Of a DNA stretch of 58,306 nt, positions 22,670-30,126 are shown in pieces. The position numbers and the translations under genes are program-made. The stretch covers positions 1 through 58,306 of the forward strand of contig CANMBF010000014.1 in NCBI GenBank assembly GCA_947496065.1, written 5' to 3'. This DNA comes from Bacteroidota bacterium. GTDB lineage: Bacteria; Bacteroidota; Bacteroidia; NS11-12g; UBA955. The notes beneath the pieces are model-generated. The model did not search any database. It was not told where the DNA came from and saw nothing but the letters and a program-made list of their open reading frames with translations. Numbering within the stretch: the first letter of the stretch is position 1; every line of letters starts with the position of its first letter.

Positions 22670-22670
22670 T

Positions 22671-22695
22671 AGTCAACTGTGTTGACTGACTTTTT
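22671..22695 (+). terminator. Hairpin terminator after uvrA
   Basis: AGTCAAC (22671-22677) and GTTGACT (22681-22687) form a perfect 7-bp stem with a TGT loop, followed after GAC by TTTTT. Confidence 0.65.
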
Positions 22696-28316: not shown

Positions 28317-29000
28317 ATGAAATTTGGCGTAGTAATATTCCCGGGCAGTAATTGCGATAGAGATTTAATAGAAACCATCAGTGCTGTTTCAAGCGGACAG
28401 GTAGAAGAATTGTGGCACAAGGACACCGATTTAAAGGGTGTTGATTTCGTGTTTTTACCAGGTGGGTTTAGTTATGGTGATTATTTGCGCAGCGGTGCCA
28501 TTGCTAAATTAAGTCCGGTGATGCAAAGCATAGGCGAGCATGCAAAGGCAGGAGGCTACGTTATGGGGATCTGCAATGGTTTTCAAATTTTATGCGAAAG
28601 TGGATTGTTGCCAGGCGCATTATTAAGAAATACGAACAGACAATTTATATGCAAGAATGTATTTTTAAAGCCTGAGAATACACAATTAAAAATCACGAAT
28701 TTATTGTCGGCCGGGCGTGCTTATAAAATTCCAATTGCCCATGGCGAAGGAAGATATTATGCCGATGAAAATACCTTAAAAGAGATGGAAGCCAATCAAC
28801 AAATTATTTTTAGATATGTAGATGAAAATGGTTTGGTTAATGAAGTTGGTAATCCAAACGGATCTTTGAATAATATTGCAGGTATTTGCAATGCAGGTAA
28901 AAATGTTTTTGGCATGATGCCACATCCTGAAAGGAGCGCAAATGATTTACTTTTGAATACAGATGGCCGAGCCATTTTTGAAAGTATTTTAGTGTCTTAG
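28317..29000 (+). CDS. purQ: Phosphoribosylformylglycinamidine synthase subunit PurQ
   Basis: 227 residues. This is the glutamine amidotransferase subunit that supplies ammonia for FGAM synthesis in purine biosynthesis. The nucleophile is Cys86 in GICNGFQIL, and the His/Glu pair lies in MMPHPERS. The small-subunit form implies separate purL and purS genes elsewhere. No other purine genes are adjacent. Confidence 0.95.
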   Translation: MKFGVVIFPGSNCDRDLIETISAVSSGQVEELWHKDTDLKGVDFVFLPGGFSYGDYLRSGAIAKLSPVMQSIGEHAKAGGYVMGICNGFQILCESGLLPGALLRNTNRQFICKNVFLKPENTQLKITNLLSAGRAYKIPIAHGEGRYYADENTLKEMEANQQIIFRYVDENGLVNEVGNPNGSLNNIAGICNAGKNVFGMMPHPERSANDLLLNTDGRAIFESILVS

Positions 29001-29215
29001 TTTTCTTTTTTCTTTGTTAAATTTTATGAAGGGTTACTCCTTTTTTTGCGTTGAATAATGTGTAAAAAAACATATTAAATTGACATAAAAACAATCATCG
29101 CAAAATAAAAAATAATAATATTTTTTCCTGATTTTTATTTTTATTGTTTATAATCTGATTGAATTTCAAGCATTGAGTTGAATTAAACTATAAAAAAAGT
29201 TTCGTCAATCAAAAA

Positions 29216-29243
29216 ATATAGTAAACTAAGTTTACTATATTTG
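29216..29243 (+). promoter_or_regulatory. 25-bp palindrome overlapping a -7 box upstream of the SET gene
   Basis: ATATAGTAAAC (29216-29226) and GTTTACTATAT (29230-29240) are perfect inverted repeats around TAA. TATATTTG, a TAnnTTTG box, occupies 29236-29243 and so shares the right arm. The arrangement fits an operator for a dimeric repressor. No well-spaced -33 TTG was seen. The rest of the gap from 29001 is AT-rich with nothing else recognisable. Confidence 0.5.
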
Positions 29244-29282
29244 AAATCAATTTTTTGATAAGTTGTTAATACATATTTAACA

Positions 29283-29318
29283 ATAGAGATAATAGTTTCA
29301 AGCTATTCTCTATTTTTG
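29283..29318 (+). promoter_or_regulatory. Second inverted repeat plus T run / -7 box before the SET gene
   Basis: ATAGAGATAATAG (29283-29295) pairs with CTATTCTCTAT (29303-29313) with one bulged T. The sequence then runs TTTTTG, so in RNA this is a terminator-like hairpin in the path of any transcript from 29243. The same bases also spell TATTTTTG (29311-29318), a second -7 box. Confidence 0.45.
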
Positions 29319-29720
29319 AATCGGATTAATAAAATAGAATTGAAAATAGATAAGATTGTTAACGGAGATATTTTTGTAGCGAATGCTGGACATAAAGGAA
29401 GGGGGGTGTTTACATCTAAAGTTTTAAATAAAGGAGATGTTATTGAAATTTGTCCTGTTATCGAAATAAATTATAAAGAACATCAGATGCTAAGCGGACA
29501 TATTTTGGAGAATTATACTTTTGTATGGAACACCAGAAAAAGAAGTGCAGGTATATTACTTGGCTTTGGTTCTTTGTATAATCATGCAAAAAAACCGAAT
29601 GCAGATTATGTAAAAAATATGAAGGAAGGTGTGATGGAATTTAAGGCAATAAAAAAAATAATGGCCGGTGAAGAAATTACCATAGACTATGGTGATATGC
29701 ATTCCGATCTCAACAACTAG
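29316..29720 (+). CDS. SET-domain protein (putative lysine methyltransferase)
   Basis: 134 residues: a minimal SET domain with no pre-SET part. The start of the fold is VANAGHKGRGVFTSKVLNKG. The SAM-binding core motif is LYNHAKKPNADY (Asn89-His90), matching the eukaryotic NHS.xPN pattern. The end is GEEITIDYGD with the conserved Tyr125. SET enzymes transfer methyl from SAM to protein lysines. There is no in-frame ATG near the front: the open frame starts at TTG 29316, which lies in a promoter box, and TTG 29340 is an alternative that keeps the whole domain. The gene ends 25 bases before the lysine-rich H1-like gene, its most obvious candidate substrate. Confidence 0.8.
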   Translation: MNRINKIELKIDKIVNGDIFVANAGHKGRGVFTSKVLNKGDVIEICPVIEINYKEHQMLSGHILENYTFVWNTRKRSAGILLGFGSLYNHAKKPNADYVKNMKEGVMEFKAIKKIMAGEEITIDYGDMHSDLNN

Positions 29721-29745: not shown

Positions 29746-30126
29746 ATGGCAACAACAAAAAAACCAGCTGCAACTAAAGCAAAAGCTACAAAGGCAGCAC
29801 CAAAAGCAAAAGCGAAAGCAAAAGCAGCTCCAAAAGCAAAAGCGAAAGCAGCACCAAAAGCAAAAGCAGCTCCGAAAGCGAAAGCAAAAGCGGCTCCTAA
29901 AGCTAAGGCAGCCCCTAAAGCAAAAGCGAAAGCAAAAGCAGCTCCTAAAGCAAAAGCAAAGGCAGCTCCTAAAGCTAAAGCGGCTCCAAAAGCGAAAGCA
30001 AAAGCAGCTCCTAAAGCAAAAGCTAAAGCAGCTCCAAAAGCTAAAGCAAAAGCAAAAAAATCTGCCAAAGCTCCAGCTAAAAAAGCGCCTGCTAAAAAAG
30101 CAGTTGCAAAAAAAGGTAAAAAATAA
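29746..30126 (+). CDS. Histone H1-like Lys/Ala/Pro repeat protein
   Basis: 126 residues made only of Ala, Lys, Pro, Thr, Ser, Val and Gly plus the initiator Met. The core repeats APKAKA and APKAKAKA; the tail is AKKAPAKKAVAKKGKK. This matches the C-terminal tail of eukaryotic H1 and bacterial H1-like proteins such as chlamydial Hc1/Hc2 and AlgP, which bind and compact DNA without a fold. It is extremely basic and probably nucleoid-associated. The DNA repeats are imperfect, with mixed Ala and Lys codons, so length may vary between strains. It is 25 bases after the SET gene and has its own strong terminator. Confidence 0.85.
   Translation: MATTKKPAATKAKATKAAPKAKAKAKAAPKAKAKAAPKAKAAPKAKAKAAPKAKAAPKAKAKAKAAPKAKAKAAPKAKAAPKAKAKAAPKAKAKAAPKAKAKAKKSAKAPAKKAPAKKAVAKKGKK

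Follow-up and report, generated by a model that had tools for sequence, protein, structure and literature searches.

The palindrome that lies upstream of the SET-domain gene in the window (the whole 58,306-nt stretch of DNA analysed here) was found, as its core TAGTMAACTNAGTTKACTA, in all 14 readable SET orthologs of the genus at a constant distance from a TAnnTTTG promoter box, and the same core occurs with at most two mismatches at 44 places in the source genome (G000, a draft of 79 contigs), compared with 2 places for the reversed pattern. On balance, we consider it somewhat probable that the palindrome is the binding site of a putative homodimeric protein, which would control the SET gene and the adjacent gene for an H1-like protein throughout the genus and would have a chromosome-scale role in one clade. 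Neither the chromosome-wide repetition of the palindrome nor its conservation is visible from the window alone. The features discussed are listed in Table 1.

Table 1. Positions of the palindromes, promoter elements and genes in the window
Feature	Position	Strand	Remarks
Palindrome AAATATAGTAAACT-A-AGTTTACTATATTT	29214..29242	.	Core TAGTMAACTNAGTTKACTA (29219-29237); presumably bound by a dimeric protein
Second copy of the palindrome in the window, TAGTCAACTGTGTTGACTG	22670..22688	.	2 mismatches; lies between two convergent ORFs, immediately past a stop codon
Second conserved motif, TTTGATAAGTTGTTAATAC	29254..29272	+	25-26 bp from the palindrome centre; 14/14 orthologs
Promoter box TATTTTTG, TAnnTTTG (-7 type)	29311..29318	+	Conserved in 14/14 orthologs, +82 to +84 from the palindrome centre
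SET-domain protein, 126 aa	29340..29720	+	PF00856, 3.8e-15, cut-off passed; orthologs in 14/17 genus genomes; start most likely TTG 29340
H1-like protein, 126 aa, Lys/Ala/Pro repeats	29746..30126	+	Second gene of the presumed operon

Palindrome and promoter of the SET gene

The palindrome consists of two perfect 14-bp arms around a single base (A). The first-pass annotation was right that a perfect palindrome is present, and its arms, given there as 11 bp (29216-29240), were extended here. No other perfect palindrome with arms of at least 10 bp and a spacer of 0-1 occurs in the window, and 60 windows simulated under an order-1 Markov model contained a mean of 0.05 palindromes with arms of at least 11 bp and none with arms of at least 14 bp. 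In each of the 14 orthologs, the palindrome core, the second motif, the TAnnTTTG box, the start codon, the SET gene and the H1-like gene follow one another in the same fixed order, and 82-84 bp separate the palindrome centre from the box. These comparisons support the palindrome as a probable conserved control element. The stretch folded as RNA with a z-score of -6.5; an RNA structure is disfavoured because the arms vary independently at position 5, and no known RNA family reached its gathering threshold anywhere in the window.

The second motif, searched as TTTGATAAnnTGTnnATA with at most two mismatches, was located 25-26 bp from the palindrome core in 14/14 orthologs and is private to this promoter, as all 12 exact copies in the 17 genus genomes lie at the SET promoter. 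It resembles what we take to be a DnaA box. A replication origin at the locus is unsupported, because lineages differ in the gene next upstream and no clear skew switch was seen near 29 kb in the window.

Two promoter boxes had been proposed for this region. The first, TATATTTG at 29236-29243, overlaps the right arm of the palindrome and has an equivalent in only 2 of the 14 orthologs, which argues against its use as a promoter, whereas the box at 29311 has one in all 14 and is very probably the promoter. In promoters of this type, a TTTG is expected 19-21 bp upstream of the -7 box. No conserved TTTG was seen at the -33 distance in an alignment read by eye, and the two upstream motifs are located further out. 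The box at 29311 does match the -7 element of the Bacteroidota promoter consensus (-33 TTTG and -7 TAnnTTTG, as given in PMC6847099) in 14/14 orthologs, and the same holds for the TAnnTTTG -7 box of a sigma-ABfr promoter. Repression of the promoter from the palindrome, which had also been suggested, is a misfit to the spacing, since the palindrome centre lies more than 80 bp upstream of the conserved box in every ortholog.

The hairpin described just upstream of this box (29283-29313) is real in this sequence, the segment 29275-29321 folding at -13 kcal/mol with a z-score of -4.8 against dinucleotide shuffles, but the strong fold is private to this genome. Against mononucleotide shuffles, the hairpin segment scored -4.2 here, and the 13 other orthologs scored between -1.4 and +0.9; covariation in the four closest sequences did not exceed that of shuffles, and no terminator-like site was detected in 29000-29400. 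The hairpin is therefore a poor candidate for a terminator, and an intrinsic terminator between two promoters was rejected, as a conserved stem followed by a T tract was not found. The comparison with relatives proposed by the first-pass annotation thus bore out the palindrome and refuted the hairpin.

The SET reading frame has no ATG, as had been noted, and the two in-frame TTG codons named as start candidates, 29316 and 29340, are both present. A codon matching TTG 29316 is in frame in 3/14 orthologs, in contrast to a start of the 29340 type, which was found 104-112 bp from the palindrome centre in 14/14 (ATG in 2, GTG in 7, TTG in 5); the SET gene most likely starts at TTG 29340.

The SET and H1-like genes

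Among the 53 other genomes of the family, a weak match to the SET protein was found in one; the three genus genomes without the protein are 82-85% complete, and the relatives that it matched are mostly metagenome-assembled Bacteroidota. Residues N81, H82 and Y117, which presumably belong to the NH and Y motifs of SET domains, are invariant in the 14 orthologs, and the nearest solved chains are 5h6z and 1n3j, the latter being the PBCV-1 H3 methyltransferase. The H1-like gene follows the SET gene by 24-48 bp at 14/14 loci (the copy in G004 is cut by a contig end), and its product, although evidently rich in Lys, Ala and Pro, had no family match in Pfam or NCBIfam. The gene upstream of SET is purQ at 4 of the 14 loci, a GNAT gene at 7 and another gene at 3. 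At seven of the 13 named loci (L121-L127), the upstream genes cluster into a single family, whose tested member (L122) is a GNAT acetyltransferase, and an M1-peptidase gene lies downstream at 11 of the 13.

More distant SET loci were also inspected, namely 67 of the 80 retained out of 156 found, some of them with short flanks. A Lys/Ala/Pro-rich ORF was found near 0/67 and the palindrome in the upstream 400 bp of none; since no such ORF accompanies these distant loci, the SET-H1 pairing seems to be special to this genus in the present sample. The SET enzyme may methylate the H1-like protein, judging from the adjacency of their genes. Chlamydiae likewise have both a SET methyltransferase and a bacterial protein of H1-like type, Hc1, and in the account of one review (PMC3980110) cpnSET is reported to methylate Hc1 and NUE is not. 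The present genes differ from the chlamydial ones in being adjacent, in having one predicted shared promoter and in coming, to judge from record titles, from a non-pathogen, and methylation is here something that we infer.

Number and setting of the dispersed copies

The 44 copies are distributed over 31 of the 79 contigs. High numbers were also counted in five relatives (61 in G006, 46 in G009, 41 in G017, 38 in G013 and 21 in G008), the other 11 genus genomes contain 2-10 copies each, and the 53 genomes outside the genus contain 0-1. The reversed pattern gave 0-6 matches across all 70 genomes and 0-2 in the five relatives. With a looser pattern, in which the outer positions were fixed and one mismatch was allowed, the excess shrank to 50 versus 13 for the control in G000, and some genomes fell below their control (4 versus 28 in G011).

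According to mechanical ORF calls, 33 of the 44 sites lie inside ORFs; of the 11 that do not, 9 abut stop codons and 2 precede a gene, these two intergenic sites away from stop codons being the SET site and one in L049. Site centres were near a stop codon in 11/44 cases in G000 and, among the matches listed, in 12/28 in G006 and 6/9 in G009, compared with 4.4%, 5.6% and 4.7% of random places in the respective genomes. Position 5 (A or C) was unmatched between the arms in 21/44, 14/28 and 4/9 copies, respectively, which would be expected if a dimer read each half-site separately, and would not be expected of an RNA stem. The spread over contigs is compatible with a uniform one (P 0.07 for the draft genome, with contig sizes partly interpolated; P 0.26 for the 23 contigs of at least 40 kb), and the largest contig, whose size was interpolated, has 0 sites versus 3.0 expected (P 0.048).

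Conservation of the dispersed positions

The term clade is used here for G000, G006, G009, G013 and G017, which have 38-61 copies each and a common site in metG. For G006, the first 29 of its 61 sites were compared with G000, minus L103 at a contig end. Twelve of these 28 coincide with sites in G000, in matches at 66-84% DNA identity; 12 have no match in the G000 stretches compared, and 4 are matched at a different place. Among the matches listed, 4/10 sites of G009 coincide with G000 sites, as does 1/5 of G008, namely the SET site. G008 seems to stand apart from the clade, since 0/4 of its checked non-SET sites coincide, and site turnover may be high, since only 12/28 sites are shared with G006.

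The most informative shared positions are at gene ends. In miaA and lpxB, the palindrome is found where the gene ends: it begins within an interval from 8 bp upstream to 6 bp downstream of the first base of the stop codon in 4/4 recovered clade members (G000, G017, G006 and G009), with flanks that cannot be aligned, and the TAG of the palindrome is itself the stop codon in G006 miaA and G009 lpxB. Both sites are absent from the other genomes examined (12/12 for miaA and 10/10 for lpxB, the partial sequences L270-L272 having been left out of the lpxB comparison).

Shared positions within coding genes are weaker evidence than those at gene ends, because a 19-mer can stay within two mismatches for a while even when unselected, and coding constraint favours this. 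The metG site is present in 5/5 clade members, with one base different in G009, and in 0/9 other genomes readable there (L213 and the weak paralogs L215-L217 were left out). It replaced other codons with no insertion or deletion, and in the protein SQPSLLF took the place of forms such as GEPVHLF. Synonymous codons within the site agree in 6/7 cases in G006 and 5/6 in G009, which are small numbers from one gene, compared with 355/603 and 344/613 over the rest of the gene.

Interpretation

A dimeric DNA-binding protein is the simplest reading of a motif that has a fixed sequence, is kept amid changing surroundings, was made by substitution within coding sequence and tolerates unequal half-sites. 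In the mechanism that we favour, a putative homodimeric, sequence-specific protein would bind the palindrome. At the SET-H1 operon, its site would lie about 94 bp upstream of the transcription start that we infer, together with the private second motif and one TAnnTTTG promoter, and would most likely act at a distance, as an activator site or a looping anchor. In the clade, the same site would have become fixed at about 40-60 other places, within genes and next to stop codons. There, the protein would most likely have an additional role on the scale of the chromosome in the manner of SlmA or MatP, by marking or shaping the nucleoid. The same protein would set the levels of both products of the operon, the H1-like nucleoid protein and the SET enzyme, by which the former may be methylated. 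That one protein binds both the SET promoter and the dispersed sites is suggested by the identity of the motif sequence. A search for an autoregulated binder gene compared the surroundings of the few sites in nine low-copy genomes by tblastx (18 loci, covering part of the sites); apart from the SET locus itself, it yielded no gene family common to them.

As a more tentative extension, which we regard as possible and would not press, the SET-H1 promoter may be the ancestral target of an undescribed chromosome-scale system of Bacteroidota, in which the number or occupancy of the 40-60 sites would be used to adjust how much histone-like protein is supplied and methylated according to the state of the chromosome. 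If true, this would be a bacterial counterpart of the coupling of histone supply to DNA content.

The main alternative to a SlmA/MatP-like role is titration, in which the SET-H1 regulator is soaked up by the dispersed copies, which act as sinks and need no local function; replication would double the sinks, free regulator would drop, and the supply of H1-like protein would follow DNA content. The sites do lie at places of little significance for transcription (33/44 in ORFs and, of the remaining 11, 9 next to stop codons), their spread over contigs is compatible with uniform, and the sole site conserved throughout the genus is that of the operon to be controlled. Decoys, however, require number and not position, so that conservation at fixed places is not required of them, and relatives with the same operon manage with 2-10 sites; we judge titration rather unlikely. 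A conventional transcription factor that governs a large regulon, for which the SET site is one operator among many, agrees with the conserved, promoter-linked site at fixed spacing and is slightly less likely again, as only 2/44 sites (SET and L049) lie upstream of a gene and the rest lie in ORFs or at 3' ends; the dispersed sites are thus mostly not promoter operators.

Mobile palindromic repeats of the REP type, moved by a Y1/RAYT transposase, or structural RNAs at transcript ends would also give dispersed palindromes, many of them at 3' ends, and Y1 transposases were found in all five clade genomes. They were also found in 7/12 other genus genomes (one below the cut-off), the metG copy, the one site examined in this way, arose by substitution with no insertion, and sites shared at 66-84% identity are old and not freshly moved; an RNA is opposed by the mismatched stem at position 5 in half of the copies. 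Both are improbable origins for these sites. The model of the first-pass annotation, in which a terminator hairpin separates two promoters and a repressor occupies the first of these, has all its elements in this one sequence but is scarcely credible, failing because the first box is present in 2/14 orthologs and the hairpin is unusual only in this genome, where a terminator-like site is also lacking.

Relation to known systems

Tens of copies above chance, mostly at places that are not operators and partly kept in relatives (12/28 and 4/10 sites), are features of SlmA-, MatP- and Noc-type systems that were also found here. Noc binds palindromic sites over the chromosome and is a ParB paralog, whereas no second ParB over the cut-off was detected here. 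ParB_N gave one match over the cut-off in 14/16 genus genomes and none in G013 and G007 (G012 was not among the 16), and G000 has one such match and one weak match below the cut-off. A Noc-type ParB paralog was rejected as the binder on these grounds.

SlmA is a TetR-family protein. Its palindromic sites number 50 in E. coli and fall mainly in coding regions (PMC3116907), and in V. cholerae it has in addition been found to activate a promoter (PMC5519180). The likeness lies in a single palindrome that recurs in tens of copies, mostly within coding sequence, and in the ability of one protein also to activate a promoter; the present palindrome differs in sequence and phylum, in having one copy fixed at a SET-histone-like operon, and in that its binder is putative. 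The scattered palindromic matS sites were likewise recognised from sequence ahead of their binder, MatP (PMC3116907), but matS is confined to the terminus, in contrast to the spread over 31/79 contigs, compatible with uniform, observed here. A literature search, judged at the level of search results, found no dispersed-site system of the SlmA/MatP type in Bacteroidota. In enteric bacteria, SlmA and MatP came to light through dispersed palindromes that a dedicated protein reads, and the motif described here is a ready bait for the putative binder. If the binder is found, chromosome organisation in Bacteroidota would become testable and would be linked to a paired SET enzyme and histone-like protein.

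Variants and local copies of the palindrome

In G011 and G015, the only palindrome match apart from the SET-promoter copy lies about 1.8 kb to its downstream side (G011:C15:120416-120434 and G015:C3:201432-201450), and could be either a looping partner or a chance match in coding sequence. Three other low-copy genomes (G010, G016 and G018) have weak sites in common, of near-identical sequence (TAGTCCACTCGGTTGACTA type and TAGTAAACTTAATTGACAA) and possibly in the same genes. In G005, a variant palindrome built from TAGTCAAT half-sites is in excess (23 versus 10 for the control), so that the dispersed motif may drift between lineages. L040 and L062 are short contigs whose genes are related and have the palindrome in the same position, which indicates that some copies spread with gene duplication.
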